Below, piece after piece: positions 13,801-49,800 of a stretch of 64,000 bases of DNA. Below the pieces are notes generated by a model, which worked only from the letters and a program-made list of their open reading frames with translations, searched no databases and was not told the origin of the DNA. The stretch is taken from NCBI GenBank assembly GCA_902728285.1, contig CACVBU010000096.1, forward strand, positions 551,937-615,936. The letters are read 5' to 3'. Origin of the DNA: Clytia hemisphaerica. Taxonomy: Eukaryota; Cnidaria; Hydrozoa; Leptothecata; Clytiidae. The stretch's first letter is position 1, and each line of letters starts with the position of its first letter. The position numbers and the translations under genes are program-made.

Positions 13801-16800
13801 AGAGAAAAATTCGAATTAAAGAGAGTATTTTATGCTACTTGAATATTTTAGTTCGAATTATAGAAAGATTCGAATAGTAGAGGTTCTATTAGAGAGAGTA
13901 GACTGAACATAGTAACATTTTTCGAGCTTTAAAAGCATGAAGTTCTGAGATTTTTCTTGCATGCAGTTACATATTGGTATGAATTGAAACAATAATAGAG
14001 AGCACGTGGCACACGTTAACAAAACTGTGTTTCAAAACAATTTCACTTGCTGTGAAGGACATCATAACTGGTAATATTATTATTTGGAAATAGTGACACA
14101 GTCATAAAAAGAAAAACTTAAACAAGAATTTTAATATTTTGTTCGCAGAGTTCCATGTTGTATAGGATAAGTTTGGTTGGTGGTGATTTATCGGAATAAA
14201 AGTTTTTTGTATTGTATTTTGGGCGATACAAATATTGTACATATTTGTACATGTTGCAATAAAAGCACAGTAGTGTAATGACGATTTTGACCGTCGTCCG
14301 GTAAGTCAAGGTCAAACTAAACTTACTTCTTTGTTTTTAGAAAGTTAAAAATACAAAGCTGATAAAATTTAACCTATCTTGCTTTAATTTAAGATCTTTC
14401 TTAGCTAAGGAAGGATACAGTCTGTGGGCGCTAATAATTGGGTTCTTATTTCAGATAGCGGGAAAAAATGATCTTACCACGGCGAATTTCTGTTCCAATT
14501 CAGCATTTCGATTTTCCAGCTCGGCGACGAGTGTTCGTAATTGATCGTACTTTATGGTAGCATGGTTTGCTCGCTCTCTTTCGTTCAGCTCCTGTTTATT
14601 TGAGTGAGGTAAAAGAATGATTGACCAATTAGCTGGCACACAACTATGACAGCCACTGACCTTTATAAATCCTGGACTTTGCTATTACTATCGGTCATCT
14701 TTGATCGGAGTTTTTAGTAAAGTGGTACCTTAATGGTAGTATTACTTGATGTGTGTTAATTTATAATTTATCCTTGAAAAAAAATTAACCAACATTGAGT
14801 ACCCCACTTTCAAAATACTCCAATCAAAGATTTTGCTAGGCCGGGATTGGGAAATTGCGTCCAGTATTCATATAAGGTTCAGTGAAGATAACATTGATTT
14901 TACGTACATGTATTGTACTAGTATTTTAAAGACGTATTATCACTTTTCTTGAAGTAAAAAGACAGAAAGAAAAGAAAACACTTAATATCAGGGAAGGCAG
15001 GGGGTTAAAATTTATAAAAATGACTTTTTGGTGATTTTAGGTGAAGGTACTTTATGGATTTGACGACAACGCCAAGATTTTCTTCGAATTAAACTACCGC
15101 AAACAATTTCTGCACTTGTCTATTTTCCTGAAAAGCAAAACAAATGTTTACTCAGTTGTTTTTCTACCTTCATCTCCAAGGTGGCCAATTTTCGGGCCAC
15201 GGATGAAATTTCAGCCGTTGCGGCTTCACTCGGTGTAACATTGCGCCCCACTGAAAAAGAAGAAGAGTCAAATACTGTAATCAAAAGGCATCGAGAAAAA
15301 CTTCTAAATAATGAAAAGTATAAAAAACGCAGATAACTTCTTTCAATACTTTCAACAAAATTGAGTTATACTATAGGAAAGTACGTTATGCCGTAATAGA
15401 TTGAAAGATTTCTAATTTGGAACATTTATACGTAGCCATTACTATCAACGCCGGAGTAAGGCATTATATTTTTCGATGCTTTTAGATTGACCCAGTGCAG
15501 CAAGATAGTGATCAGTGCTAATAGGTTCTAATCACAGCGGAGTCTCTTTAACGCGAACCTCTACAATTCGAATGTCTCCGTAACTCGAAAAAGTTTTATA
15601 GGCCCTTAGGTTAAAAATGCCATATAAACATTACTCCATAAATCGAAATTTCCTTAACTCGAACAAATTTGTGTTCCCCATGCGTGTTCGAGTTATGGAG
15701 ACTCCACTGTATGACCAAATTATCAATCAAGGATTCTTACACTTTGTGACCAGATCATTCAGAGTGTTTTCCAAAGCGTACGCGCGCTCTTTTTCCAGTA
15801 GCAATTTCTCTTTCAATGTTTTCTCTCTGTGTTGGTGTGACTTCAGTTCCCCCTGAAAAGTGATAGAAAAAATAAGGGTTGCATGAAACTAAGAATTATA
15901 AGCCCTAGAGGTAATTTCTCAATCCTGGCCAATCAAAATCTTAGATCGGAGTTTTCAGAGAAATTTATAACGGAATTAAATTGTTCTAAATTGAGCAGTA
16001 CATTTATTAGGGTTACCAATTTATTAAAGCCCTGATTAGAGATGCGGATATTAGCTGAATACTAGGTTTTGTTTATGACAGTATATTACATGACAAACTT
16101 AATAGTAAACGTTTTACTACGATCATTTTAGCGGGAAGGGATTACTTTAGGACAGCCAGGTGTGGGGTAGGTGCGACCCACGTGTTAAGGCTTTAAAAGT
16201 CTCTGCAGTAGGTCCGAAAATTGTTCTCAATTTTATAAGAAAGGTTGATCAGAAAGTGTCTCTGACAGTCACTTTTTCATCAAAATTATTCTCTAGTCTA
16301 TTAATGGTCAGCTTCAGGGGGTCTTCATCAGCCAATCGTAGTTCCCCGAAAAATACTTTAGTGATAGCTTTCATAATTTTATCATAGTTTCATGTCATTT
16401 TCCGGGAGGAAGTATCCACTCGAGACTTGAGGTGTATGAATCCAATGGAAAGAATGTTTTTAAGGCACTCTCTGAAATTTGATGATTAAGGGTGTGGTAA
16501 ATCATTTTCACCGCTGATTTACGTAATAAAAGTTTGGTTGTCTGTTTTTCAAAAGGTGTGTCTGAGCGTCTGAATGTCTGTCTTTTTATAACGAATGCCT
16601 TCAACCATTGTAAGAGCTATTCTACTTTTTTTATTATGGTGCTTTTTCATTTCATCTTGTTTTTTTCATAACTTTTTGGGAAAAAAAATCATTCTAAAAT
16701 ATTCTTACAGTATTCTTAGGTTAAGATCCAAATTCAACCTAAAAGTTTAACATGTAATACATGTAAGACAAGAGTCATATATGGAAAGTGAGAGGTAGTC

Positions 16801-19800
16801 CTAGGACTAAACTCTATTTAAAGAAATTTACGACGGAAAGAACATGATTGTAAGAAGAGTGGGTAAGAGGCCCAGGTGCCTAACTGTAAAACTCTATAAA
16901 AGAATTGACAAACGAATGGAATGATAAGATCTATAAATTGTAAAGATGTAAAAGATTGTTTCATAGAGGTCAATAGACCTGAGAAATATACTTCTATAAA
17001 TATAATACACGCTTGAAGCATAATGACATTTTTGTATAAGTATTGAGCCTCCATGGGGGATAATAGGCAATTTACAGTTAAGAATGCTCTTAGAATGGCA
17101 TTCTTAGGTTCTGTTGATGGTGATATTCATAGCATATCGTCATAAATATTCTTATAAGATGAGTGCACTTTTTGCTGGGTAGGCCCACTGAACAATTTTA
17201 GTTGTGAGTTTTCAACGAAGTTTCCATACGTTTCCATAGTCTTCATTAGGATTCACTAATTTTTTTGAAGGTCAGTTTTTAAACTTGGTCATTCAGACCC
17301 AAAAGGTACCTATAGCCGAATTTCAATAACAAACTAATTTTTCAAGGTAAAAACCTTATTCCACATGACTTAAATCATGTTGACAAAGTTTATGGTATGA
17401 CAGAGAAGTTCTAGATAACCGACAGTCAAGACATTTTGCGTCAATCAGGAGGAAAAACAACTTGCCGTAAAAAAACATGATCTATTTAATACCCATACAG
17501 CGTAAACGAAGTGAGAAAAGTGAGAGAATAAAAAAAAATATGTATTACACTAGAGGCTAATAAAGTCAAAACAACATAACAATGACGTCATCGATGTTTT
17601 TATCGATGGTATGCTCTTTGATGACATGAAGTGTTATGAATGACATTGTCGAACGATTTTTTTTGGACAGGGATTTGTTATTCGTGAATAACCTTGTTTT
17701 TTCCGCCTTACTCTTTTTTTCTTCATATTTTTTGTCGTGCACCTTTAAAGGTCTACACGTTTTTCTTTTTGTTAGAACCCAGTTTATAAGAACATTTAGG
17801 CTGAAATTTGGGGAAAAAATAAGAATATCGTAAGAACATGGTCAGCCTGAGAATCTAAGAAATTAACCAAAGTGCTTAAAATTATCTAAATTCATAAGAA
17901 GTCTTTGTAGTTGTAGTAATTATTTTACTTATCAACTTTAAACTACAGCAAGTTTGCTCGACTTGAAGCAGCTTGAAGGCCGGTTTATTAAATCAAAGGT
18001 AATTTTGTATATTTGAGCTAATTGATTCCAAGAACGCTAATAAGAACATTTTAGGCTCAAAATTCCCAAAAAATAAGCACATCCAGGCTCAGCCGAAATT
18101 AAGGTGTTCTAATAAAAAGAAAAACGTGTATAGCATGCACTTATATAGGAGCATCCTGTTTATTAGCACATTGTGATTTGGTTGACACCTCCATCATTTC
18201 CTTTCTCGGCGAAGAAATCAACCAAACACCGATCTGAGAATTGCTATCCATCTACACGTTTTTTTTTTATAAGGAACACGTTTATAAGGAACTCGAGGCT
18301 TTAAATGGTTCAAAAAATAAGGAATTATTAAGGAACTGCTCAGGCTGAGAATAAGTGGATTTGAAAATAATGTACCTTATTGGGACTAATTTGACCAAAT
18401 TTTGATCTTTCAAGGGGCAAAAAGTTCAAAATTTCCTATGTAGTAAGGAACTCGATAAGGAACTTTGAGACTGAAATTCTCTGTAAAAATAAGGAACTCC
18501 AGGCTCAGAGCAAAGTTAAGGTTCCTTTATAAGAAAAAAAACGTGTAATAGGAACATTAGACTCAAAATTGTCGAAAGGTTTTAAGGACATTCAGTCTCA
18601 GCCCAAATTAGACGTTTTAATAAAAAAGCGTGTATTGCGGGTGCGTGTTTGCGTTTGAAAATTCCGGTGGTTCGACCCATAAAGGTTGGAGTGTTAATGA
18701 GATGTCACGATTATAGTTCCTTTGTTTGTTTGTTTACCATGCAACTCTCTGTAGCATAGCATGTCAATGACGGTGGTCCTTCATATCTTTTTCGCCGACG
18801 ACGCCATAATGTAAAGATGTTTGTCTAAATTGCCATGACGTGACACGTATTTTCTTAAAAACATGCGAGTGCGTGAATTGGGGAAAAGGGGTGTTCAGAA
18901 ACTTTTATAAGAAAAAATGCATCAAAAGCCTGATATGTTAGTAAAAATATTAGGGCGAAAATAAAAAAAGCTTGTATCGAAATGATTGGGTCGAGAATAC
19001 CTCCAGGTTGGCAATAATGCCTGTATTGTTTGATCAAAAATGACTTTTCAAAACAGAGAAACTATTGGTTTTAAATTTTTTATTTGGAGAGCTTTTTATG
19101 TTCTTCTCCGATTAGATAAAACAATATATGCGCCAATGTGTGTGCCAAAAAACTTTTCTAGTGGAAGAAGCACATCAGAGAGGTAAAGATCAAATTTTTA
19201 TGTATGTGAGTGGCTCTTAAAATAATATGATTCTCACAAATTCTTTCAAAAACCATTGACATCATTTTAAACTAGCATGTACTTGTCAGACACGAAAAGC
19301 ACGTATTTTCCTTTAAAAAAAATTTATATGCTTATAAGCATGAGAGAATGACTATGGAGAACAACATTATGTTACGGTGCGGTAAAAACAAGTTGATTCA
19401 ACAACGAAACAAAAATATTTTGACACTTTGGCAAACAACTAATTTCTGAGAAGAATGTTTTTCTCTGGTACTTAACGTACGCATGCGCAGTCTCATAGTC
19501 TTATATATAAATATGAAAGGCAATTAATTTAGGGATTAGATTTAAGATATTTGGTGATTGTGAACAAAACTAAAGCATAGAGGGCGTGACGGTGAAATTA
19601 GTGAGTTTATTTTATCTTTACTTTTCTGCGACATCCTGACAGGAGATGACGGTTACACGTTTTTTTTTTATTAGAACCCAGTTTATAAGAACATTGAGGC
19701 TGAAATTCGTCGAAAAATTAAGAACATCGTAAGAACATGGGCCATTCTCAGTTTGGAAAAAAATGACAAGAAACTACAATTTTTCCCTTTTTTCAAGTTT

Positions 19801-22800
19801 TTTTAACTGAACTTAGGGATGGATTTTCTAAAATCGAGAGTCAAATATTGTCCAAATTTTACCAATTTTAAAAGTGCTCTTTACTTTGCATGATATTGTC
19901 TGAAAAATTACGAACGCATTTAAGAACATTTTAGGCTGAAAATTGCTAAAAAAAATCAGCACATCCAGGCTCAGCCAAATTTTAGGTGTTCTAATAAAAA
20001 AAAGGTGTAATCAATATTTTTACCGTCTTCAAAAGTGCTAATACCTAAACTAGCTATTGTTGACCGAATACTGGATGATAGGTATCTCGTCTTTGCCACG
20101 AATATGGCGGAATACATCTTCCTTATTTTCGACAACAGAAATACTGTATTGGTCAATCTTCAAATATTGAATAAATCTGAATTTTAATTGGTAAATGCTT
20201 TCTTCAAACTTTTTCGGTTTGTCGAGGGTGGCTTCGTCAGAAAAATTTCAAAGCGTGTGAATTTTAAGATGGGCGGTAATAAGGGTAATAAGCTTTGTAT
20301 GAGACACAAAAAATGTCCAGTTGGTGTATCTTTCCTATTTAGGTTAAAAAGTTGTAGACTTTTAATTGGATGGAATCCAGGGGGTTTTTCTCACCAGGTG
20401 TTTGCCACGAATTACGTACAGTTGACTCTCGCAAATTCGAATTCGAACGGGGAATCTTATTTGTTCGAATTACAGAGAGATTCGAATTATAGAAAGTATA
20501 CTAAGTAAGAGGGTTTCTCGACGGGGATGGGGAATAAGTTGGAATTGTAGAAAGACTCGAATAATATAATTCGAATAGGCGAGAGTCTACATATCTGACG
20601 CTAGTGTAAGAAAAGCCGGTCTTTCCTAAGGTGCTCCCGTTAAAATAAAATCGTCTTCGATAAAATGAAATTCCATGACAATTCGTCATCGATCCTTATT
20701 ATTTTAAAATATTAATTGATAATATTTTTGATACTGAATAGAAATGGGGCTTGTTTTTACCCTCTTTTTTCTCTTGATGTGTGAAAAAACTTACGTAAGG
20801 ATAAGGGTATTAGTTAGCCCTAAGGGAAATCTACAACAATTTTTGAAGAAAATTAATAAAAAAATCTCTTCATTTAAAAAAAGACTGTAATAAGAATTTC
20901 GTTTCCCTCTAAAAACGAACCCGTAGGAAAATTTTGAAAAATCAAAAATATATATAATACCATACATATTAAATACAGATTTTTTTCATTTACAAATTTT
21001 TCAGTTAGCTTATACTTTTTTTCTCGAAAGGGTTGGGAAAAAAATTAATATTTGAATGTTGGGTAACAAAAAAGAAAATTGATAAATAAAAATCTCATTT
21101 TTCATGATCAAACAAAATTGTTAAATAACAACACCACCTGGGATTTGATTTTTATACAATTCCACAGTTACTGTATTTTGCTTTTGAATTTCAATAAGAC
21201 TTGGGTAAAAAAATAATGTTCAATATTTTTTTGCATTTATCATTCACGAGATTCTCTACTGAGCATCTCGACGAAAGATGTACAACACTTAAGAAAGATT
21301 ATGCAAAAAAGGGTTATGACCATGGCAAAGGTGAAATTAAGGTTATATAAATTCAAAGGTATTGGATGGTTAGAGGGGTGAGGGGTGAGGATAGATATTA
21401 ACCGGGTGCAATAAAAAAAAATCATAAGTTAATCATGTAAATTTACCCCTTCAAGGGGCAAAAAGCCATGCTTGTTGCTTGGAGGCGTCAAACAAGCTGT
21501 CCAGGAGTCAAAGTTATTTGACAGAGGTTTGAAATTCTCAGGGTCAACCCCCCCCCTCCTCCATGAAACTTTTCTTTCTTAGGCCATTGAAGTTCTGTAT
21601 CGTTCTAATCCAGCGTTTAAGCGAGGTCAAAACGACGTTTATTCAACGTTTTTAACTTGTTGAAACCGATATAAGACCAGTCTAAGCTTATCCCAATAAA
21701 AGTTAACGATGATAGATTTTACAACGTCACAAATTATGTAATAAACCTTCCATGGCTGTGTATATTCATGATGATCTGATTCAATGGATAGCTATAGCTT
21801 TGGCGTAATTCTTACAATTAGGCGTAAAAAAATTCTCGAGTAAAAGAGAATTTTGTAGCAGTTCTTGGAGTAGTAGAACTAGATTTCCCAATCAAGGGAA
21901 ATACTAGTGGTTATTTTAATTCTTAGGAATATTCAGAAATACGGTAAAATTCTCAAGATATTTATTGATTTAGTAATTTTAAATCCAGAATATACTATTC
22001 AAAAAGAAAAGTAAGGAGTTGCAACATTCCATCTTTTGGTGAAGGCATTAGACTCGTACCTTTGGAAATTAAAAATCAAGCTAGTGTTCTAAATTAGTTT
22101 TACATATATAAATTCTTTATGGTTGATTTCTCTCATAACTAGATTCCAGAAAGTTTTTAAATATTGTCAACAGGAAAGCTAGACAAGGCTTAAAGTATAA
22201 ATTTTTTAAGAAACAATAAATCAATATTTTTTTGATAAAACCTTCTTAGCACTGAAAGCTTATCGTTTTGTTAACTTGACATAATTCGCTATAAATAGAG
22301 CACGAGCGTGTATATATGAAATCAACAACACGCAAAAATGTCAAGTTATACATGTTATTTAAAACCAAAACGTTCAAATAAAAATTCTCTAAGATTTCAT
22401 TCATACTCTTAAAAACTTTTTGTAAGGATGTTTACAAAATATCGGCTTAACTACACTGACGAGGTCATTTTCCTATTTACTGAGCAAACTTTTTTAACCT
22501 GACTTTATACTTATACATACAAGCTTTATCAATTACAGCAGTTGTAAAAAAAACTTGTAAAATTTTAAGTCGTAAACAGCTCTATCAGGTATCATTTAAA
22601 GACGTTTTAAAAACGTTCTGTAACATGTCAAAAACAGAGTGATCGAAAATACATGTTCGAAAGCAAAGTCCTACAGGATAAATAAGAATGCCACATAATA
22701 TAAGTTCAAAACATTTATTAAGTGAAGTTGGTTAGGTTATTTTTCTGTTTCACTAGATCTTTATGATGTTTTGTATTAACACTGTGGTTATTTCAATGGC

Positions 22801-25800
22801 CACACCCTTTATTAGACTGTTTTGGTCGTATGAAACACATTCTAGATCTATGTATATTAGATAACGTTAATCACATATCAATATGTAATAGTTATCGGAC
22901 AGTTGCGAGTACAATATGAGAAATATTTTACGAGTTTCGAGATTTTTCCGTACAATATTTTCCGAGCCTGTAGGCGAGGAAAATATACGGAAAATCCGGA
23001 ACGAGTAAAATATTTCCATATTGTACGACCAGTAAAATTTTTATGAGACTCGACTGTTCTTATTTTTTTGGCAATTTGAGCCTCAAATAGTTCTTATCCT
23101 GTTCTTATTGAAAGAGTGTAATTGAGGTATTTTATACCCAATTTTTACTATAGGGGTCAACCCTAAACTTTAGTTTAGACGACCGACCTTCGGCCCTACC
23201 TAATCTAATTGTTAGAGTAGGCAAAAAGTTTGTTTAAAAAAAGACGTAAAAAACTTGGCAAGGAATGGATGGATGGATGAATAGGCAAATTGTTTTTAAA
23301 GTAAAAGGGTACAATACGATACAAAATAGAAGGTTTACATTATTCGTCATTGACAAGTAGAAAAAAAATACCCTATCAATCTCATGACTAAAATCTGACG
23401 TAAAGGGACAAATAGGATGTTTTTTTCTTCTAAATGGTATAAATACCCAGATTATGTCAAATTTGTTTTTCAAATACAACACAATACTGGTTATAAAGTA
23501 AAAAACAACACATCAAATGTTACAGTGTACGATGGTAGAGGTGAGAGTTTTGAGACTTGTTCATATTCTTAAGTACTGGGAAAAAAACTTCTAATTCCTA
23601 AATGGTATCTTAACAGTATTCTATAAACTATTTTGAGGTGATTTTAGTCTAATTTACAAAAAAATTGTCAATCTTGGTCAAGTGCAACATACATAGTGAA
23701 ATGTTTGGCAAAGTCTAGTAGTTTTATTTTGTTTTTACTAATATAGTCTTTGAAAGTGTCTGTAGAAGGCTTTTTATACAAGGGACATCGAAGAAGTGAT
23801 TTAGCAACCTGAGTTACAAATCTAGAATGGTGCACCAAGGCAAAATGGTTCTCTCAAAAGAGTACAAAACCATGAAAAAGCAATCCAGTCTATCTAAAAT
23901 GATTCCCTCAAAGAGTCAATTTTTGGAATTTCGACAAAAATTTGACAATTTTAGCTTAAATTTTGGGAAAATAGTCTCAACGATATCATTTTGGACAAAA
24001 TTTTCTAAATTCAGTCTCCCTTAGAAAAAAACTCAATCTTTTGAACTGAGTAGAATATTTCAGATAGAAGTGAAATAGGAGAGGTTCCAATTGGAAAGCT
24101 TTAATTTCATTTTGTGAAGATTTCTTTGATGAGAATGATAGTGAATGAAAAGCTGCATAAATATGGGCCTATGTATGAGGTAGTTATAAAGGCTAATATT
24201 CCACTGAAACGTAAATTAAACTTTTTCGTGTCACCCATTTATCAAAATTGTCTTAGTGTTAACAAGACGTACTTCAAACAGTGTAGAAAACGTATAGCTA
24301 ATGATGAGTTGACGATATGAAATAAGGTCGATCCATGTGATATAGGGTGGATCAAACCATGAGAGAAGCAAAGATTGTCAAGAGTATCGAAGGAGGAATT
24401 GGAAATACACAATGAGAGAAATCCTATTCATAAAAATTTTGTCTCGACCATACAAAAGTCTATAGAATTCGAGACAAAGAGTCAGTCAGAAGGAGGAAAA
24501 TAGAAAGAGGCAAATATTTCGGAGACAAGTCAAAAGTATTTCCGATGCGAACGAGTGAAGTAAAAACGACAAGTATACCTTTTTATAATTACGTAAACAA
24601 AAAGCAACAACAAAAACAAAACGAGAAAGAAATGTTTGTTTGTTATATAAATAATACGAACAATTACTGACAAAGGAGCCACACAAATAAGAGAATTTTG
24701 GAAGCTGAATATTTCTTCCACACAAAAAAAGAGGACACCGTATAAAGGATAGTAAGAAACGTGATCCGGTAACTGTTATCTCTTTCACTTGTATATGGTT
24801 GTTTGTATTATTGATGACATTCATTTCTTTCACACACAACAACTTGGATGTTGTTACAAATAAAATATCATCGTTTAAAAAAAAGGGGTAGAGAAATTTT
24901 GTATGAGTGTTTATAATTAGTTGATGTTTATGTTGTTTTTCATATGTATGTGTTCTGTTGTTTGTTATAGCAGTAAAATGCTCGTTTGTGTGAGATTGAT
25001 TTTTAGGTATGCTTTATGCAATTATCAAAACGAAGTAACAAAACGTGTCCCCGAAGGGGCTAAAGATGAAACTCTTAGATGGAAAATGAGGCAATTCGAA
25101 ACATGTGGCCCGCGTGGTTTTCTTTTTACCAACTGAAAAAGTACCATGTCTACCATTATGGATTTGAGAGTGTTCCCATCTTCCTGGGTGTGGGGCTTTG
25201 TTTTGGTGATTCCTGACATGTTCCTGGACCTCTGTGCAAAATTTCATCTCTACACCATTTTTGTCCCGGTTTTGGCGGTTTATGACCTAATTCTACCTGA
25301 ATACTACCTCCTTACAACATTAACGATGTTGAGCAAGACATTGTTTAGATGTTGTGTGCCGGTTTCTTTGAAAGTTTTTCGTATGAAAACGAGTAGTTTC
25401 TGGATATATTTCCAGGTATTTATTCACTTTAAACAAACTAGAAAACAAAATTGGTAATAATCTAAGAGAGGCTTTCAAATGAAAATTTCTCTATATATTT
25501 TCAGGTAGTAATTCAACATTATAAACAAACAAGAGGAAAACAAATAAACAAATATAATATTCAATGAAGAAGAATGGTACAAGACAACATTATCAATCTC
25601 ATCAAAACAACACTACATCCAATCCCTATTGTCTTTGGTGAGAAATACAACAAAACAGATAGTAGTAGTGGATTGAATAACAATCGTTTACTTGTTCCAA
25701 CATCAGGTATCACCAATGTCAGCTCAAATAATTATCCAGAAATACCTCTGGGTACAGAGATTGGTATTTCCACAGCTGTCTTCGCCGGCCTTGGTATTCT

Positions 25801-28800
25801 CATTAATGCTTTGGTAATAACGGTTATAGTCATGGCCAAAACAAGACAATATTCTACATATAAACATCTAATGCTACATTTGGCAGCCTGTGATTTTCTA
25901 TGTTCAATTGTGTTATTGCCTTACGTGCCGTTAGAATTGAAAAGTCATTATTGGACCTATCCAGATGCAACATGTCAAATCATCTATCCAACAATATCTC
26001 TCCTGACCAATGTTTCGACAGGGACGATTTTGATTATAACCATTGAACGATTCAGAGGCGTTTGGTTCCCACACGCCCGTCAATGGGGCGGAACAGACGT
26101 AAAGAAAGCATTCGCCATTGTCTGGCTCATAAGTCTTGTATCCGTACTACCCAATATCATCATGTTACGTGTGAAACAATATGACAATATAATATATTGT
26201 AATGAGGTTTGGGATGAAAACGATCCCACTTATAAGCGTTTGTATGGATTCTCATTTTTGGCTGTTTCTTTTTTCATTCCATTACTGGGAATTACTATCA
26301 TGCACACCTTGATTATCTGTCGATTGAAATATAAAGAACTCACACCGGACAACATGTCAGCTCACCAGCAACGACAGAACCAACGCATTATGAGAGTTCT
26401 AACTGGTATTATAGCAGTCTTCTTCTGCACTGTCAGCCCAAACAAGATATTGTATTTCGTCTGGGATGTGGACCCCCAGTTGGAAAAGGACTTGGAATCA
26501 AATACACGATATTATTTAAGGACAGTACAATTTTTCTACTGGTCTCGAGTAGCTATCAACCCTATGATTTATTGCTTCTTTGATACACGTTTCAAGAAAG
26601 ATTTCAAAAAGTCCACTAGAAGGATGCGTGGCTTGAGTATAAGAGACAGTGAAGTTCGAAGCCGATCGGCTAGCCAACGCACTTCCACAATACTCTCCGT
26701 ACGATCAAGAGCGAACAGTAGCTTTATAGGCGAGGCGGAAGAAGCTATCTCTCGATGTAACCGTATGAGTAAGATCTCAAAAATGGATGCAACGTCTTTG
26801 CAAACGTTCGTTGAAGACAGGGGACGTCGCGTACGTTCAGCCACGGTAGATACGGACCTAAGTGTCTCACCAATGGCCCACAGCACATTGGTAAAACAAG
26901 GATCTAGATAAATCGAAATTTATTATTGTATATGAGGTTCTCGTTTTATAAGAACTTTAATATTTGTTAGGTGTATTATAAAATGCCGTACTTAGGTTAA
27001 CAACTCCTTCCGCCCTGTTCGAGTCTGACCAAGATTGGGGTATAATAGGGGAGTGGCAAAATTTCGTCGAAAAGTGCTTAAGCTGAAAGTTTACGCCTCA
27101 CGTTTTTTATTACTTCACTCACTATAAAAAGGAGACATTTGGCTTCCACTTTTTTACAACTTGATGGCTTTTAAGTACGTTTTTTCCTCTTTTTGAACAT
27201 TTATATTGCCAACTTCAACGACTTCAATTTAATTGACTCGATGAAACATGTTTTAGCGATAATTGCTCCGACTGTCATGTAGTTTCCAATCCTTGTTTTA
27301 AATGTATATTTTTCGGAAAGCAACAGAATCTAACGTTATACAGTAAACATTAGATTATACTTGTTGAAAAATGAAAAATTTGCAAGTAACAATAGCTAAT
27401 CAGATACAGATATGATTTCTGTGGCCAAACCAAAGACCTAAATACTTGTACTGATCGAATAAAATTCATGATGAAGCTTATTATCATATTATGTTATAAA
27501 GATTGTATTTTTCATAAAGATTGAATATAATATAAATCATATCATTTTTCTTGCATTTATATAGAAACAAGTATTATTACAAATATATATTTTATAAAAT
27601 ATTATAATAATGATTATTTTTAATAGGTATTCTTTCATATGTATGATAGTCCCCTCCTTGTAAAATTCTTGTAGCTTATTATACTCATTATATTTTTAAA
27701 AAGTCATATACATTATAGTATCAAAAAGAGAAAACTAAAGTTATACTCACAAAAACAGACCGATTAGTCATTTCCTTATGGTTACAGGATTTATATTGAC
27801 GCTGAAAAAAAGGCTTCGTATTTTTTGAAGTGTGATCGGGCCTAAAAATTTCGTAAAATCATGAACATCCAAGACTGAACACTTATAGTGTGACATTATG
27901 AAATCTTATTATCTCGTTCGATTATATGAGACACTGAGCCTTTTCCAAACCACAAAACTACAAAAAAAACTGACATCGAATTTCCAAGTGGACCTTTTGG
28001 CAACGTTTAAGGAAAAACGCCTACTTTAGTTTTCCGCACGCATGTTACACGCTTTTTTTTATAAGAATGGTGTAAATCCATTCCATATCATGGACATTCT
28101 TTACTTTTTTGGGAAAATTATCCTAAAATATTCTGACAGCATTCTTAGGTTAGGGTCCTAATTCAGATAGATTTAACATTTAGTACATATGTCTCAAGCA
28201 TAAAATGGCATTTTTGTGAAAGGAGTGAGCCTTACTTGGTGGTAAATGACAATTTATAATTAAACATGCTCTAAAAATGGGACTCTTAGGTTTAGATGCC
28301 AAATTCCATGATGGTGATATTCTTAGCATATTCTTAATTTTTTGGCCATTTTAATCATGGGCATTCTTATAAAGTGTATTCTTATAAAAAGAAAAGCGTG
28401 TAGTCATTTCCTTATAGTGACAGGTGGATTTATATTGACAAACGCTGGAAAAAAGGCTTCGTATTTTTTGAAGTGTGATCGGGCCTAAAAAATTCATAAA
28501 ATTATGAACATCCGAGACTGAACACTTATAGTATGACACGAACTAATTATGACATCTTATATCGTCCAATTATATGAGACACCGAGCCTTTTCCAAACCA
28601 CAAAACTACAAAAGAAAACTAACATCAAATTTCCAAGTGGACCTTTTGGCAAGGTTTAAGGAAAAACACCTACTTTAGTTTTCCGCAAGCATGTTACTGT
28701 TATTAAGATTTCGTAACTTAAAGACATGCATGCGCTCTTTTTAATATAAGAACATTTTTGAAATGTGCTAAAAAATAAGAACACCGTGATACTGGAATCA

Positions 28801-34800: not shown

Positions 34801-37800
34801 GAAATAATCATCAATTTCAACTGATTGACCCCCAAACTGGTAAATGTGTCTTAACTTACATTAATCGTATAAAAAAGATTTCGATTGTGTTCATTTCAAC
34901 TGGAATATGTATGAAATTATCTTATGGGAGAGGGATTTCCCATTCGAAGTAGCAAAGATCCCATTGTTTCCTGACTACAGTTTAAAGCATCAAGCTCGTT
35001 TAGCTTGTCTACGATTTTACAGTGACAAACAACTAACAGAATACCTTCCAAATTGTTTAGTAAGATATTTAGGTGTATTTGATGAAAGGAAAATGATATC
35101 ATCATTAGAAAACTGTGAAATGAAGCGAAAAAATGTCAAAGTAGATGAAGAAGAAGAATCTTCTGTCAAGAAGAAGAAAAACAAATCGATTATTGCTGCC
35201 GAAGAAAACAACTTAAGAGAACAAGGTTCAAGCAGTAGCAAGCAGTGATGACAAAGGAACAAACATTACTTCAGATGACATTCATTTAAGAAGAGCGAAC
35301 AAAAAAAAACCTTTTGGTTATAAAGTATATTCTTTTTCTTTAATGACAAGTAACTTTTTATTAAGGCTTGGCTTTTCTAATTATTTTTTGGCATTTTCAT
35401 ATTATCCCAGAACAGTTATGATATCACCATAATAACACTTACATCATTGTTTTACACAGATTTTAAACAACTCCAGTCGCTTGTTAACGCCTTACAAATT
35501 TAGAACCACGCCTTTTAAAAACAGTATAAAGGATGGAAAGAATAAACAAATACATGGGAAGTGTAACACGAGAACCCCTAGCTTCAGAGTATTTTTCAAG
35601 CGCTTTTTTACCACCGTTATTCGGTGGTAAAAACTCAATTTTAATCAATTTTCTAAGATGGAGAAATGGCGATACCAAAACTCTGAAATATCAACTCGTT
35701 TTATTGCAATGAGTCTAACAATTTAGCAAGGTTGTTTTTCAAAATCAAGTTAGAATTTTTAGGCTTTTAAGATACATGAAAATAACTATTTTGGACATTA
35801 TAAAAGAGGGCAGACATTTCCTTCGCCACCCAACCATGGTGGGTGGATATTATACCACTACCTTGAAACTCAATTTTTCAGACAAAACGGTGGTAAGGAA
35901 AAGTGCTTGGAAAATACCCTGCTAGCTTTTGTAAACAAAAGGAGAAACTATTTTTCCAATAATCAATATTTCTTGCTTTGTCAAGCAATCGTCGAAAAAA
36001 AAAATTACAAACGTCATTTTGTAAAAATGTCCAGCTTCAAATTAAGAAGTAGTATCATACTTTAATCACAATAGCAATTGTAAATGAAAAATATTTAAAA
36101 TCATACAATAAGTGCACAATCTTTAGCACACGTTTTTTTTATGAGAACATCCAAAATTTTTGAAGCCTTCGGATGTTCTTAAGCTTTTGAGTTTGAAGAC
36201 TAAAAATATTCTTAACATGTTTTTATTTTCGCCATTTTTTGAGTATTTTTGTCTATTTCCCTATGAAATCGGGTGTTTTTGAGTCCGCAAAGCCTTAAAA
36301 TGTTCTTAACTTGTTCTTAACATTTTGGCCATCGAAGCCTTACGTTCTTATATAGTTTGTTCTTATAAAAAAAAGTGTAGTCTTAGGGTCTACTTAACCA
36401 GGTAGTGATCATTTCTTTACTTTGTGGAGATTTTTTTTAATGAAAGAAATTAAGTTAATTAATAAAATTAATAACACTTAGGCGTGTTGTTGATTTTACA
36501 TTATGTCTGTTATGTCTCTTCGTTATTATCTATTATACTTTAAATTTTTGTAATACGCATTACTTATTTATGAAATGGCATCTAGGATGTAGACAAGCCT
36601 AGAACTGTCTAAAAGTCCTGGAATTATCCAATTACCAGCTAACATGTCAAATTATTGTCATTATTTCATTATTTAGGCTTACCAGTGAATACCCCTTAAA
36701 ACCTACAAAAGGTATATCCTCTATCTGAAAATTTACGTGAAATTTTTGCGTGAAATTTTTGAGGATGAAACTTTTTTTGTGTTGAAAGTACACTCTCTAT
36801 GGTTTTCTTCCCTAGCAGTGATGTTTTGTAGAAACCAGTTTTCAGTTTTTCACGAGAAAGTGAAAAAATGCCCCTTTAGCTATTTACCCTTACCCCCCCC
36901 CCCCCCCTTAAAACCTACAAAAAATAGTTTTTCTCGAATAAATTTTTATAAATAGTCCTTTTGGTTTCAAATTTTGAACAGTGATTCACTGCAAAGTTAC
37001 TTATGTTACAGTTAGATCATTGGTACCTAAATATTTTCAAAACTGTACGTTAAAATCAAAATACAACTTAAAACCTAAACTATTACACCTAAAATCTACA
37101 AACATTGACCCCTTACTCACAACTTACTGAAACTGTTAAATTGCAATTCAGGTTCTGAGCCGTGATTCAATTGATCAAAGACTTGCTAAAATCAGGCGCA
37201 ATTGAATAATGGGTATGGAATCCTAAAAAATACAAATATTGTTTTGGGAATGGATTTTAGCAATAAAATCCATTTCCAAAAACAATATTTGTATTTTTTA
37301 GGATTCCATACCCATTATTCAATTGCGCCAGTTTTTAGTCAAAAACAGCTTTGAACAGCTTTGAAGGATCAAAACTTGACTTCATTTTTTACTTATGGTA
37401 CTAATGTTTTTCTAAATCTCCATCAAATTGATGGTATGCAATATGGCTGTTTTGAGAAAGTCGATTTTTAGATTTTATACCATAGTGAGCTTTAAAATAG
37501 AACTTTGAGAGCCGAACGTTTTCTTTGGGGTCTAACCATGAAGAAGAAAATGATTCTTTCATACCTACCATAAGTATAGGTACCTAAAGGTTTTATGACC
37601 TTAAATTCAATTCTTTAATCTCTAGGTCCGAAAAACTTGGGTTGTTAAAGGGATGTTTGATAAAATTTTGAATAACTTATAACTTAATAACGAATTTTAC
37701 GACACTTTGCGATGATTGAAATTCTCGAAATTGGGTATTTTATGAAATACATTTATAAGAGGTTGTAAAACGGTAAATTATACAAAATTAAATCAAGCTT

Positions 37801-40800
37801 GGTGGCTAAGAGAGCCCAAAATCAAACTTTTTAGGTTTTAAGGGGTATGTGGTTTTAATAAGGGGTATCTACTGGTATAACATGTTTTTCACCTTAGATT
37901 TCAGTCCGTACTAAAATGAAAGTACTAGTGCAGGGTTGCCACAGGTTTGCTAAGTTGAAAATTTCAGACTTTATGCCTCAAAACCCACATTTTTCCAGAT
38001 TTTAGTAGACAGGATTATTTCCTTAAAATTCCATACTTTTTCCAAACAGGTATGTCGATACCATACTTCCAGATATTTCTGGCAGACATAGCAACCCTCT
38101 AGTGATCACTATCATTGGCTTAACTTTTGTTGGTAACAACTGATTGTTTGGAACCCTTGATTAATCTCATCTTTCGAAAACAACTCGCCATCAAATTTCT
38201 CATGATGCTACGGTAATTTTGATTCTTGAAAACATAAATTCCTGGATTGACGATAGTTCTTAAAGACAAGACAAAGAGTCCGTATTTTATTGAGCCAAAC
38301 TGTTCTTTTTCACCCCCTGAGAGAATAAATGCGACGGCTAATATCACTGTAGCTAAGCAGCAGCCGAAGAAAACGGCCATCAAAAGTAAGATATTCTTGA
38401 TGACGCGTCTTTCAATGTCTGACAATAGACCAATTTTCTTTCTCTCTTGAATGACTCTTCTTACTGGAGAGGATACTTTTTTCGGAAAACTTTCAACATC
38501 TTTTTCCTCTGTAGATTTATTCCCATCCGAGGTTGTCTCTGCTGAATTGTCAATGTTGTGTTTTCCTATACCTTCATTCTCACTAGAGATCGTTTTCTCA
38601 GATACATCACTTTCAATTTTAACAGTGTTATTAACATTTTTGTTTTGCGAGTCAGCTGCTTGAGAAGAAGTAACAGTTGGAACAACACTTTTCTGACCAA
38701 ATCCTGATTTGGGGTTCTCCACTCGGCGCCGCGAAGCCTTCATTTCACGAACAATTAACACGTAGAACAAAGGTAACGTAATGAGGACCAATAGAAACAT
38801 AGTGATATTTGTTACCGCAGAAATGTGAAGGTCGATGAAAAGAAAACATGGATTGGTTATCGAAAACAGATGTATGAGAGATACCAATATAGTGACTCGT
38901 TTTTTGGATAAAATCTGGTCATATGTAGATGGTCTGGAAACCTTGAGGTAGTTATTGACAGCAATGAGTAAAATGATTAAGGATGATGACCAGAAATATA
39001 CAGCATCTAAGTACAAGATACTCAATGGTTTTGCCACCAAACCAGGCTTTGTGAGATATGTCACAACTTTTGACGGTAAGGTGACGAAACAGAGAAATAA
39101 ATCTGAAATGTTGAGTCCTAATAAAAGTCTTTCTTGGTTTCGGAGCCCCAAGATGTTCCTCGAACGGTATTTCAGTAAACAATAGAAAGCAACAACATTC
39201 GCTATTCCTCCAATGAGTGAGATAGGTATGTAACCCAAACCCAAGTAATAAAATCCCATTTTTTCCTTGTCAATGATTCTGCTGTGTCTGTTACATCAAG
39301 GCTTGAATTGTGAAGAGCCAGGCGAAAACAAAGTTTCACCAAAAAAGGACAGTATTTTTATATATATCCAATATTAAAATGTCACAAAAGTAAGTAAAAT
39401 AAAATAACAAAAGCCAATAGAAAGAACTCTCCATGGTAACAAGACAACAGTAACACATATGCAGTTTTACACCAGCCTGTACTGATCAAAATTACTATTG
39501 CAAATACATCAACCCTTTCTGTGCCAATGTCGGACACTTGGCTTTTCTAGGAGGGGTGAGGGGCGAGGGCGTTTTCTTTAATCGACAGAAAAATAATTGA
39601 AATTATGGCCTTAAACAGCTTTCGCTAAAACAGTCAAAAGGAAAGACAGAGCTTTCATAAAGTATGTGCCCTTTTTGAAGTTTTTTTATTAGAGTCTGTC
39701 CTCCAGCGAGTTTATTTGGAGTTTTACCATTGGTACCCTTTCCATCGATTTAGTCAGCTCTGCGCAATGATTGTTTTAAAGTTTGAATTAGTCTACAAAT
39801 GAAGATATATAAACAGACCTTGTAAGAGTGCAGTCTGTAAAACTGAAGTCATAGGCAGTCTACAAGTAGAATTTGTTTGTAGAAAATAATCTTTATTCAC
39901 ATTTGATGATCACATTTTGCGTGATGGTTTTTATTTTTTTTATTTTTGAAGAGAAATATATTAAATTGAAAGTTTGAGCCTGTCAGTATTCCAAAAGAAA
40001 ACGGTCCTGGCCTCTAAAGGGTTAAGGCGCAGGGATCAGAGAAACAGAATGATAGCTTAAAAAAAACTGAGATTTTTCATGAATTTTTAAACTCCTTTTT
40101 TAAATGAAAATGAAATTTCAAAATTTGATACTGTACTAAAGAAAAATAGGTTCTTTATAAATAATTTGACATTTTCCCTCTATTCTCACAGTCTTTACCA
40201 TATTATTCCTTAAATTACAGAAAGAAGTTTTTTTTCAACCGCTTATCCTCAACACCATTGTTATAAAAATGCATTAATTATTAAAATTAAGCCAAATAGA
40301 AAACCAGTATTTGGCACCTTGTAAAAGTTCAGTCTGCAAAATACCTATCATTCATCCCCTCATTCATGGATAATTTAAAAACTTTTTGTTATTGTCACCC
40401 CTTTAGTGGTATGAATTTGTCTCAAGTGCAGCCAATAATACTTTTAAGGGAACTAATATTTCGATAACTATTTTTTTTCCCTAAGAAAAAGTGGTTTTTT
40501 GACCTCGAACCGCGAATATTAGTTCCGTGAAAATTAGTTTCCCTAAAAGCTGTATGTAATAATACTTAACATATTTTATAAAATTAACCATCATCCATAA
40601 AACTTTAAGATAATATTCTTTAAACATAAATAGAGCAGGCCTTTTAAATATTTTTATTAACAGTCTGACGGATCTACAGCAAGGTTTTAATTTTGGTATG
40701 GTTTTGTTATTGCCATACCCGGTAGATAAGAAAAAAATCTTAATTAAGATAAAACCTACCTGCATGGTATCAAAAGCTGACGAGTGCGCCATCATTGAAT

Positions 40801-43800: not shown

Positions 43801-46800
43801 AAACGAAGAAAAGTTTCAACTTTTCACCCTTATTTCACCCCTCTATATATATATAAGATTCTTTAAAGTAAAAAACATTACTTTGTAAAATATTGGGGGG
43901 TCATGATGACTTTGAACGTACAATCAACTCTCTAATTTGAACAGCTATGTGAGTCGAATCTTTCAGTAATTGGAGCGAGTCAACTATAGGATGAGCTTTA
44001 AGAAAGGGTCTATTTTAATGAAGAAAATCTAATGAAGATAATTTTGTAGTAGCAACTAATGAATGGTGAATTATTTCCCGTACTTATCTCACGTAAAGCA
44101 CCATTTTCCTTTTCCAAATTTTCAATCTGAAAATGAAAAAAAAAATCTTGGTGATTAACATGGTCACAATCAGATCGTGGTAATGGCCTACGTTTCATTC
44201 CACGACTTACTACAATGCTTTTTAAAAGCCTTTTACAAAAAGGACCATCATTTATTATAAAGCAATACACGTATACAAGCCCCGCAGATTATACAAGAGC
44301 CATAGGCTCGAATCTGCTTTGGGAAAAGTCGACATATTTTGATCACCACCAATTCAATAGCTTCAGTATTGAACACCATTCGACCCTGGTAGAATTAATC
44401 CTCATTAAACCTCTGTTTTACAGAATTGCAAAAGGTCATTAAGATCTTACATAGAGATTTAATATTAAACACCCAAACCTACATTCTGAGCTCTGGCATC
44501 TAGTTCCGATATTGTTTTGTTTATTTCGAGCTGTGCACTACGTAACTCAAGCCTCAATTCTTCATTCCTTCCAGACAGATGTTGAATCTGAATAAAAATA
44601 TTTGAAAGATTGAGAAAAAATCCAAAATAACACGTGCAGTCTAAAAACCTTAAATTATTCACAGTTAATAAAAACTAGATTTGAAAACACAAACCAAGTA
44701 GATAAACAACTCGGCAAGCCTCGACAGCAATACGGTATGACCCAATATATACCGTACCCTACCTCGAAAAGACAGTGTAGCTAACAATAGTTTTAAATTT
44801 GCTATTTTTATTGATGATACCTGTGATTTGAGATGTACTGTTGTGTCATACTGACCAGTAGCGTGTTTTTCTTCGATCATCTGTAACAAAAAATTTAGAA
44901 ACTGAAATGAGTTTTAGTGTCATCAGAATCAGAATGTGAACATCAATGGTCAAAGAAATTAATTATTAAAATATCAATAACATCCATTACCGCAACAAGT
45001 TTATCTAATGATGGTGAGTTGATGTCTTTGTCACCTGAAAAAAATAAAAGTTTAAATTAGGAATCTGTGTTTAATTAGGCTACTCACTGCCCCTCTGATG
45101 TTTTGATAAGATGGTGCGCCATCATGTATAAATTGTTCGTCCGAGAGTTAACCAAGTCTTTGTGTTTTTGAGTTAAATAATATATGCATCATCTATATCA
45201 AAATCAATTTTGGGGATGCGCGCAGCCTAGAGTAAATTATACTTTTGCCGCTTTAGCTTCCCCGTTAACATTATAGTTTATAATCTAAAACTATTGTTGA
45301 AATCAGGTTGTTGGTGCAGGTTGTTAAAAAATTTTTTCCTAAAGGTTATAATACTTCACCATACCTGAATCCATTGCACCTTTCAATTCTCTCAACGCCA
45401 ATTCAAGTTGACGATTTTCATCTTTCAATTGCTAAGATAAGAAAAGAGGGTACAGCAGATTATATTTAATTGGAGCAACTAATTGTTTCAATTTTTCAAC
45501 GATTCGAATACTAATAGATTTTTTCAAAAAACTTTACTCAATAACCTGAACAATTTTACAGCCTCTTTCTGTAATTCGAACAAAAATAGTGGTTCTCTTC
45601 GCATTAGAAAAAATTTCTTGGTCCCATGAAGATCGTATTAAAGAGATATTTTTCGTTCGAATTAGAGAGATCGCCAACAGTTATAGCTTGCACCAAAACA
45701 GACAAAGAATCTTTTAAACACTCTTAATAAAAATAACCGAGACAAAAATCTATCGTAAGCGACACAAACTGGTGAAACAAGGAAATCTTATACAAACCGT
45801 GTTTTCTTTTTCAAATTGCATTTTTTGTAGCACGAGGACCTCCGAATCTTGAGTTGGTATATTTGAAGAAACATTTTCCTAAACGAATATTATCAAAGAG
45901 GGCGCAAGTAAAACAAAGTAAGTATACTTAAAATCTACAGAACTTAATAGCAACACTTCCAGCTTGAATTGATGACCATATGCACGGTTATAAAATAATG
46001 GGATAATACTTAGAAAATAAACAATAATTTTCTGCCCTTACACGTTGCGGAACTGGGTCAGGCTGTTGAATAACTTTGATGATTTTGCTTTTGGAAGGTG
46101 ATAAGACTACTTCTTCATCTAGAGGCTCCATGTCTAATGCTGACAAACCAAGTTCAACAGCACTGGAAAAAAAAAAGAAAAAAAAAGGCTTATAATGATT
46201 GTAAATGAAACTCAAATGACTTTTTTTAACCTTTTTTGAAGCATGCTCTGTGCACCATAAAAACAGAAAATCGTCTTCAAATTCTCCCTTATTACTAGTA
46301 AGATCGATAGATAGTTTGTAATGTAGTGATGATTAAAGCCAATTAAAGGAAAAATCGAACTATATACCGTTCACCCCTGTCCAAAGCATGTTTTCTCAAC
46401 GCCTTTTTCAACACTAAACGCTCTTCTTCAAGCCGCTCAACCTATCAAGACACGGTAGAAAAAAGATATTATGCGCGGTTGCAACAATGGTGTTTTGATT
46501 TCTGGAGAGATAACAGTTACCATAACCAATTGAAAGTTTTACTACTTTAAATAATTGACTAATTCACTTATTTTCAACCATGTAATTAGATTAAATCCCT
46601 AAAGAAAGAGCAGTTTCCATAAAATGGTATCAAAAACACCAGAGTAAAGAAAAGATACTATTATATATAATATTAGTTCCTTAAAGAAAACAGATATTCA
46701 AAATAGGTTGTATAAAAAGAACTAAAACCAGACCTCTTTTTGTAAGACTCTATTCAGGGCGCTAGCTTGTTCTTCTTTCACGGCACGTTTGCGTCGAATA

Positions 46801-49800
46801 TTTTCCACATCTAACTCATCTCTTGATCCAATACCAAGACGATCTCTCATCTCTTCATTCTCAAGATGGACGTCGTCAAAGTCAAGATTCAATTGGTTGA
46901 TCTCTCTTGTCAAATCCTCTATATTTCTTGGAATTTTTTAGATAAAAAGGATTAAATATCATATCATTTAAACATAGACAACTACAGAGAACACAAAGTC
47001 ACCTAAAGAAATTGAAAATCAAAACTGAGGTTAGATAGTGCTGATAAAAGGTTTACAGTAACCAACTTCCTTAGGAGGCTGAATCAGGATAGCCAGCTAA
47101 CTAACATAACAACCATGCTTAAATTTACTTTTGTACCAATGTTGACTTTGAAGCTCCGTGGCTAAAAAGATTGTCTTGTTAAAGAGAACATACCTATCTC
47201 TGAGACGTATCTGAGCTCTACAATCTTTGATTTCTTGTACAGCTTCAGTCAGGCCATATTGTCCTTTTTCATATTGGATCATTCGGTTGACAAGTTCAGC
47301 AATTTGGCGATCCTTCTCTACAATATCTTGCTCAATCTAAAGAAAAAAATCAATTGCCATTAAACTTGAAATAGCTGATTCTATATGGTTAATATTGTTA
47401 TCGGATTCTAAACCTTCATAGACTTAGAAGACACATAGACAATTAGTTGCCATAATTGTGAAGCTCTTTGTTAAGATTTACAACTACCCTTCAGAATAAT
47501 ATACCGGGTGACCCACGAAAAAGTTCAGACGTTTCCCTACATCTTGAGGCCGAACAAATGTCCCAAAGTGATTGGAGTTTTGATATTTAGAAAGTAGATA
47601 TCCTAACTTAAAATTTGAGCTATCACTTTTTAAATTTGACCAACTTGTTCTCTACTTATGAGCTTTTAAAGTCAAAATTCACTTTTCGGAAAGTGTAAAA
47701 AACACGTAAAAAAGAGGTATCAAATTTATGCAATTAATTAGAAAATCACTTACAAATTGACTTATTTAACGAGTTTTATGACATTAATAATTAATAAAAA
47801 CACCTTTAAAAGTAATTTTTGTTTAAAATAAGACTAGTTTTTATAAAATTTGGCGCTTTTGTAGATTTTTCAGATTTTTTTTCAAAAACGGTATATCAAA
47901 AACGTCTAAAAATACCAAATTTGATACCCCTTTTTTAAGTGTTTTTTACACTTTCCGAAAAGTGAATTTTGACTTTAAAAGCTCATAAGTAGAGAACAAA
48001 TTGGTCAAATTAAAAAAGTGATAGCTCAAATTTTAAGTTAGGATATCTACTTTCTAAATATCTAAACTCTAAGCACTTTGGTACATTTGTTCGGCCTCAA
48101 GACGTCGAGAAACGTCTGAACTTTTTCGTGGGTCACCCGGTATAATTATGTCAGTGGTCAACACCATAACGTTGTTATACTTAAAATCACCAGTCGTTCC
48201 AAATTTATCAAATCTATTTGGTTAGAGGAGTGCAATCAATCGTTGCTTGCACTGTTTAAACTTTTGTATTCTTCAACCAGTAAAGAAAATGAATACACAC
48301 TTTTTTATAAGAATATCTTCTATAGGAATATCGGGGTGAAAATTGGCCAAATCGTAAGAATACCCTAAGAATACCCTCTAAGGTTAATTTCACAGAATTT
48401 GTTCAGAATACAGTCATTTTGTACTTGGTTAACAGAAAAAACTGCTTCCTGTGTTAGAGATAAATTGAAGCTTCGAGGAAGAAATGTAATTTATAAACCC
48501 AAATGTTCACTCAAAAGTCCAAATTGATCATTTCTCATGTTTGTAAAAAAGTCAAGTCTAAAAAAGTAAGAATACGTTAAAATATTTCACCCTCAATTTT
48601 GGCACTTTCTTAAGAATACTTGACCCTCGTCCAAAGTACACTATTCTTATAAAAAAAGCGTGTATTGATCCTTTATCACACCTTTTTGCAGAGAGAGAAA
48701 ATATTTGATAACGTGAAGCTTTTCCATATAAAAAACACAATTTTGCACAACAAACGATTACCTCGGTATGGTATACTTATCGTTATATTTGTCGTTTGCA
48801 GTTAACAAGAATCACTCAAAACAAAAGAGAAATGCCCGTAATTTCGAATCGTCTTTCAGATTCATGCAAATTACTGATTCATCCTCGCCTAGTGATGAAT
48901 ATTGTTAGTTGAGCTCAAAATCATACAAAAAATTAAATTTTCTTTATTAGTTTTCAGCGGAGCCGGAAGTGAGGAAGTTTGTCCTCCTTTTCTATTTGAC
49001 CTTAGAGGTCGACGAATGCTGAGATCGAGCACCACACTTACCCTCAACTTATCCAATCTGAGCTTACCCATTCGCTGATTTGGCGTTGACCTGGGCTCGA
49101 ACCCACAATACTTTAATTATAAAGCGAATGCTCTACTGACTAGGCTATCAACCCTGGAGGTTATGCAGTATACAAATGAATTCAGAATTATCCCTTAAAA
49201 AAAGCTCTATGAAAGAATTAAAATGATACCTCGATGACACGTTCCCTTTCTCTGACAATTGTCACTTGTTCCTGTTGCAATGTTTCATTGAGTGATTGAA
49301 TTTTTCTTTGTTGTTGCAAGGAAGGAGCACCGTCTTTTGTTTGTGATTTCAATGTTTTAATGTGACCAGTCACTTCGTCATAGTCTTTGCTAGCCTAAAG
49401 GTCAACGAAACTTACAAATACTCATATTGTGATGTGTAAAGATGCGTAATTGCTTATTCAAGTTTTTAAAACTCATTTTTAAAAGGTGTAAGTGGCACAA
49501 TGTGAGACGAGTACATTAGTAGCGACTATAATTTCTTTGTTAGGATTGGGTGTTACAGACTGTTTACATCATGCTTACCAAGTCAAGCCTTGATTTCAAA
49601 TCTTTAATTTGTTCGTCCTTCTTATCATTTGCCTGGTATCAAAATATCATTGAAGTGACAATTATGAATATAATAAAAATCCTTGTACAATTCTTTTTCA
49701 TAATTTTTAGTCAACGTGCAAACAGTGTTTTTCCTAACTGTTGCATAAGCCTAATTGTCGCATTGGTGAACAAGTTGCCCTAAATTCTCAAAACAATAGT

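Follow-up and report, generated by a model that had tools for sequence, protein, structure and literature searches.

Tc1/mariner-type miniature inverted-repeat transposable elements (MITEs; Stowaway-like) duplicate a TA target, are small in size and reach high copy numbers. Repeated motifs near the termini are described for other transposons. The subterminal repeats of CACTA (En/Spm) elements carry motifs for a TNPA-like protein, as in soybean TgmR and Tgm1 versus Tgmt (PMC4219821), and each binding site of piggyBac/piggyBat combines a 6-bp motif and an imperfect palindrome and is repeated along one end (PMC11707139). Among cnidarians, the coral CMITEs are MITEs of several families with one common plan that form tandem arrays (PMC2872659). 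ISL2EU (PHIS) elements duplicate AT (PMC4482050). Here we analyzed six elements, E1 to E6, in a window of Clytia hemisphaerica DNA (the whole stretch under study, 64,000 nucleotides), which lies within contig C74 of a 417-Mb assembly (G000) that served for all genome-wide counts. E1 to E6 belong to several related families of short DNA transposons without coding sequence (MITEs), whose ends have thousands of matches genome-wide. Along a fixed scaffold they carry a repeated word, and the resulting arrays are probably sites for transposase binding, predicted here from sequence, in which the recognition word changed in concert as the transposases diverged.

Elements in the window and in the genome

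All six elements named by the original prediction were located at about the positions given there, and its assignment of words (AAGAAC in E1, E3 and E5, AAGGAAC in E2, AAGAAT in E4 and E6) holds.

E1, 17754..18130, plus strand: family F2 (AAGAAC inside, TAGAAC outermost), head left; inverted ends, words and a full-length match to F2.
E2, 18253..18547, plus strand: family F3 (AAGGAAC), head left; inverted ends and words, 97.3% identity to copy L072.
E2 site W1, 18271..18277, plus strand: AAGGAAC.
E2 site W2, 18286..18292, plus strand: AAGGAAC, 15 bp past W1.
E3, 19654..20009, plus strand: family F2, with GGTGTA at the right end; full-length match (88.6%) to the F2 copy of L012, and words.
E4, 28046..28402, minus strand: family F4 (AAGAAT, core CCATGAT), head right; inverted ends, words and a family match.
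E5, 36126..36379, minus strand: relative of family F1 (AAGAAC, core AAGGCTT), head right; 84.3% match with the F1 copy in L012, and words.
E6, 48294..48664, plus strand: family F6 (AAGAAT, core GGGTGA), head left; inverted ends and words.

Inverted ends pair in E1, E2, E4 and E6; E3 and E5 are bounded by matching family copies. The TACACG ends first ascribed to all six are indeed enriched in the window, with 26 occurrences vs 12.07 expected and none of 100 shuffles reaching 26, but E3 ends at the right in GGTGTA, E5 has TACACT and GCACACG, and the left end of E6 is TACACA. All six elements lie outside the open reading frames (ORFs) of at least 100 amino acids (aa) in the window.

Genome-wide, the pattern TACACGN{10,30}AAGAAC had 4186+4982 matches vs 484+524 for the reversed control, a count in which a single end may match twice, via its first and its second word. 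For TACACGN{3,14}ATAAGGAAC there were 713+690 matches vs 1+1. Boundaries came from empty sites, for which the two flanks of each of 49 copies were brought together around a single TA and compared with local sequence; by our count, 43 of the 49 had the required 40 bp on each side. Two paralogous empty sites were found, both belonging to AAGGAAC copies; a further match, of the E6 flank to itself, was discounted. That of L070 (L019:2451-2555, 92% over 105 columns) has an exact junction and a single TA, and that of L068 (L025:6705-6783, 95%) has CA where TA is expected. They indicate a 2-bp TA duplication, known for the AAGGAAC family only, and therefore an element that runs from CACG to CGTG. Intact copies are mostly 184-406 bp long, with inverted ends, and non-coding. 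Thus the features by which MITEs are recognized were all found: small size, inverted ends, no coding sequence, high copy number and, in AAGGAAC copies, a target-site duplication. In four hand-picked groups of 6, 4, 5 and 4 copies, the mean distance to consensus was 4.7, 1.3, 2.3 and 3.9%, and this low divergence suggests that transposase for the AAGAAC and AAGGAAC classes was available fairly recently.

The site array and its words

Read with the head at the left, an element begins after TA with CACG, followed by a T-tract, the TAAG-word W1, W2 (15 bp on), a core, and a stretch that often contains GGCCAAAA. W3 follows W2 at 31-33 bp and W4 lies 11 bp past W3; a second core and a variable middle come next. 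The tail consists of W5, W6 (11-12 bp on), a core, W7 (33-34 bp past W6) and another core, and is closed by the inverted terminal word W8, an A-tract and CGTG before TA. There are about eight sites per element, each made of (T)AAG followed by variable letters; seven share one orientation and one, at the terminus, is inverted. The observation of a fixed scaffold holds, and more strongly than first described. The same layout and spacing recur across word classes, with exceptions in F8 (W1-W2 of 14 bp) and F7 (W2-W3 of 54 bp). In 51 copies, intervals of at most 36 bp between successive own-class words fell exclusively at 11-12, 14-15 and 29-36 bp. A first interval of 15 bp was found in 17 of 22 AAGGAAC elements, 2 of 4 AAGAAT elements and the single AAGAAAC element (1/1). 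Of 24 AAGAAC elements, 16 have their first own word no more than 30 nt from the end, and 14 of these 16 also show 15 bp. Because AAGGAAC elements keep the 15-bp period, as 7+8 instead of 6+9, the extra base first described in E2 is not an insertion. The DNA helix has about 10.5 bp per turn, so the 11- and ~33-bp steps would place W2, W3 and W4, and likewise W5, W6 and W7, on about the same face; the W1-W2 step of 15 bp does not fit this phasing.

The AAGAAC, AAGGAAC and AAGAAT classes were confirmed, and two more were found on the same layout. AAGAAAC is represented by L016:8655-8838, with five scaffold sites marked. AAGCAT, with TACATG ends, is represented by a copy in L009 (from ~6268 to 8173) that is split by another repeat; 8/8 of its sites read AAGCAT, both ends read TACATG, and the spacing is 15/33/11 in the head and 12/33 in the tail. 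TACATG and AAGCAT also occur together in a short hairpin at L020:9791, and L049 holds a further AAGCAT tail fragment. A de novo search for repeated words near termini gave mostly simple repeats among the matches listed, yet pointed to AAGCAT. The near-uniformity of words inside an element, as first described, holds for most sites: 51 elements held 267 own-class words and, on the same strand, 20 words that belong to another class. Family F2 has TAGAAC at both outermost sites (as seen in E1 and E3), AAGAAC at most inner sites and AAGCAC at W7. Single deviations are AAGAAT at site 3 of E1, AAGGAAT at site 3 of E2, AGGAAT at site 2 of E6, and AAAAAC and AAGAAT at sites 5-6 of E5.

Covariation was measured on marked-up sites; the 10-kb loci and L029-L048 had been chosen through AAGAAC matches, and L062-L082 through AAGGAAC matches at the outer word, a choice that may bias the result. 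In a first mark-up (six families, eight sites), letters 4-7 agreed at 0.841 within elements vs 0.567 at the same site between families, a level reached by 0/20,000 shuffles. A second mark-up added AAGCAT and took the register of one F4 site from copy L013 and not from E4. Letters 4-6 then agreed at 0.944 within elements vs 0.571 at the same site between families (0/20,000 shuffles, the largest giving 0.736), while letters 1-3 showed no difference (0.944 vs 0.940; 5,359/20,000 shuffles reach the observed value). The result was the same for heads alone (seven families, F7 included; 0.976 vs 0.651) and tails alone (0.905 vs 0.552), each with 0/50,000 shuffles. When each class was represented by a single family (four rows), agreement was 1.0 in heads and in tails, and 3/50,000 shuffles reach it in each. 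The word letters therefore vary together within elements, as the original prediction described. Nor are words mixed at random inside single elements among the copies examined: among 66 heads, W1 and W2 were of one class in 57 of the 58 that could be classified, disagreed in 1, and included at least one word of no named class in the remaining 8. The window and the 10-kb loci alone gave 27 agreeing and 5 unclassed of 32 heads.

Covariation of the cores is weaker than that of the words and only partly supported. Within elements, cores match at 6.06 of 7 letters vs 5.49 in shuffles (1/20,000 shuffles), but the same-site values between families are 6.07, 5.60, 6.07 and 5.33 of 7. That the second core complements the first is seen in E1 and E4 and weakly in E6; it is no general rule, and in the family of E5 the AAGGCTT core is repeated on one strand.

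Other copies in the window are degraded or partial. The first of them had been taken as the start of the group and is a decayed copy of the E4 family.

Degraded F4 copy, 16626..17135, minus strand: two pieces (16626-16762 and 17016-17135), from a family-copy match.
Fragment ending in AAGCGTGTA, 18548..18634, plus strand: directly adjoins E2 and resembles a right (tail) end; right terminus detected.
AAGAAC element fragment, 23028..23132, minus strand: closest copy L021:3507-3772, from a family-copy match.

Longer copies with inserts or fusions also occur in the genome. L063 (C3:848190-848415) holds a 121-bp deletion form of F3 in which W1-W2 are joined directly to the final part of the tail, leaving four words, and L076 (C39:192514-193065) holds two F3 elements head to tail that share one shortened end. 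The F3 copies of L068 and L078 are broken up by other elements with long inverted ends. The window ORFs at 25574-26911, 38120-39259, 60698-61525 and 62184-63344 comprise two of rhodopsin-receptor type and two of reverse-transcriptase type; the protein encoded at 25574-26908 is matched at 100% by the EukProt entry TCONS_00054653-protein.

Explanations for the concerted words

Among the three readings that were originally offered, sites co-evolving with different transposases fit best. The direct orientation and phased spacing, together with words that are specific to the element in flanks that are specific to the site, speak for a DNA-binding protein that the sites share, and we infer that this protein is a transposase, with one lineage per word. 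Related families of short non-autonomous transposons would insert at TA, each end being an array of protein-binding sites, the outer one in the terminal inverted repeat, the second 15 bp inward and the next ~33 and 11 bp deeper. The opposite end would hold a second direct-orientation set, spaced at 11-12 and 33-34 bp, with one inverted site at the terminus to close it. A site would combine a constant half, (T)AAG, with variable letters that serve as the family address (AAC, GAAC, AAT, AAAC or CAT). The transposase, or its DNA-binding partner, may dock at this fixed geometry, bridge both ends and cut at TA. If a transposase lineage came to contact the variable letters differently, mobility would be kept only by elements whose array matched; the words would then change together, and spacing and neighbouring letters would stay. 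The constant AAG looks like a set of fixed contacts, and the variable letters that follow it look like the contacts that set specificity. More tentatively, there may be a recognition code, in which related transposases read the constant TAAG half plus variable letters, these being swapped at ~8 phased sites with the geometry of the end complex kept, so that families are orthogonal and each escapes cross-mobilization; we regard such a code as possible, though less likely than not.

The agreement of words could also come from homogenization within the element, the module of word and core having been duplicated or the sites having converted each other, with no selection by a protein. The two halves do look like direct repeats of one module, and cores agree within elements above shuffles. 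Yet duplication or conversion should carry neighbouring letters along, and the flanks show the reverse. In six families (126 and 105 comparisons), the upstream 4 and 5 letters beside the words agreed at 0.474 and 0.456 within an element vs 0.629 and 0.646 for the corresponding site in other families, and the downstream 4 and 5 letters at 0.335 and 0.321 vs 0.452 and 0.472. Spacing and flanks are specific to the site and common to families, which indicates that the array predates the word classes, and homogenization is therefore disfavoured and seems unlikely. Selection on DNA or RNA stems, with words and cores co-varying to preserve pairing, would agree with the complementary cores of E1 and E4 and with whole E1-E6 folding better than shuffles (z -1.7 to -4.4). 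When 45 nt were trimmed from each end, z became -1.45 to +1.07 (for E3, the folded sequence lacked the last 5 nt); the terminal repeats thus explain the excess. Moreover, seven of eight words are in direct orientation and cannot pair mutually. Stems were rejected as the cause of word agreement and have very little probability left. Least probable of all, to the point of being negligible, are chance or founder effects, in which each family would derive from one founder with agreeing words and change by independent mutation only. Families are internally homogeneous, as MITE bursts would be, but a mutation-only simulation (star tree, all sites alike at the start, four rates) reached the observed pair of values in 0/20,000 runs, as did 0/20,000 shuffles.

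Several points weigh against transposase-binding arrays as the explanation. The sites were marked by hand, in part through recognizing words; the words are not uniform in every element (20/287 belong to another class); AAGAAAC and AAGCAT are each known from one full copy; and at two of the four core positions, similarity between families is as high as that within elements. Neither an autonomous copy nor a transposase was found between such ends in the loci read, and neither such ends nor word arrays accompany YqaJ in the 12 of 117 loci read, which covered ~3.5 kb each, so that ends farther out would be missed. A host DNA-binding protein might instead occupy the arrays for silencing or regulation, with words tracking its specificity. 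Short phased direct repeats could suit many DNA-binding proteins, and no transposase was found here; against this, several words coexist on one layout in one genome, and the outermost words, which sit in the terminal inverted repeats, match the inner words. We consider a host protein improbable, somewhat more so than homogenization.

Several candidate sources of a transposase for these arrays were rejected. The AAGGAAC ends that span 5.5 kb on C33 belong to a MITE interrupted by an insert bearing a reverse-transcriptase-like frame (named by eye); in this F3 copy, L062 (C33:169450-175140), the ~5.2-kb insert has inverted ends AGCTGGAGTTTTTACAAG and an apparent 12-bp flanking repeat CCTTATTGGGAC. 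The 1.9-kb AAGCAT copy in L009 is the split MITE mentioned above, with a longest wholly internal ORF of 95 aa. In the 6 kb past an F8 end on C6, a second end of this kind was not seen. Among ten ORFs scanned, the rva_4 integrase core was found in open frames of two of twenty 10-kb loci (L010:8328-9545, plus strand; L013:8434-9330, minus strand), with no such ends around them. YqaJ/ISL2EU found no support as a source in the 12 of 117 loci read. The 117 YqaJ-nuclease matches all come from one animal genome (G000), many of them within open frames that reach 712 aa. The 115 matches of the DDE_3 profile in the genome are not among the rejected candidates; DDE_3 is the transposase type expected in an autonomous Tc1/mariner relative. 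Tandem arrays of them occur on C625, C353, C254, C248, C61, C672, C924, C491, C907 and C899 at intervals of ~4.0-4.4 kb, many members being open frames of ~360-430 aa; on C625 there are 12, some of them spaced by 2.7 kb. Such arrays of seemingly intact DDE_3 transposase genes look unusual.

Comparison with known transposons

The TA duplication of the AAGGAAC family is compatible with Tc1/mariner. We know of no eight-site phased array with family-specific words in Tc1/mariner-type MITEs. What is unusual here is that one word changes in concert at ~8 phased sites, with at least five classes in one genome. How a protein that reads many sites shifts its specificity without losing function midway is a question for transposases and regulators alike, and the conserved geometry shared by these classes makes the relation of word class to transposase clade, and cross-mobilization, testable. 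If the code were real, it would provide a set of compact, mutually independent transposon ends that insert at TA.

In a literature search limited in collection and terms, no title on these elements was among the matches listed. ISL2EU (PHIS) duplicates AT, and the empty site of L070 has a single TA. The 6-bp motif and palindrome of piggyBat resemble the word and core described here, but a shared mechanism is an analogy only; piggyBac duplicates TTAA, which does not fit the TA found here. In CACTA elements, too, a motif recurs in the subterminal region in both direct and inverted orientation; it is two-part and differs between subfamilies of one genome (PMC4219821). This is a likeness only, since CACTA ends and a 3-bp duplication are found there, in contrast to CACG or CATG ends and TA here, which do not fit that group. 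The CACTA account also concerns a 13-kb element with a transposase, whereas only short non-coding copies were found here. Like the elements of the window, the CMITEs are several cnidarian MITE families built on a common plan, and they form tandem arrays (PMC2872659). However, they are ~100 bp long, use TTAA and have differing terminal inverted repeats around one conserved interior, which is nearly the reverse of the pattern described here.

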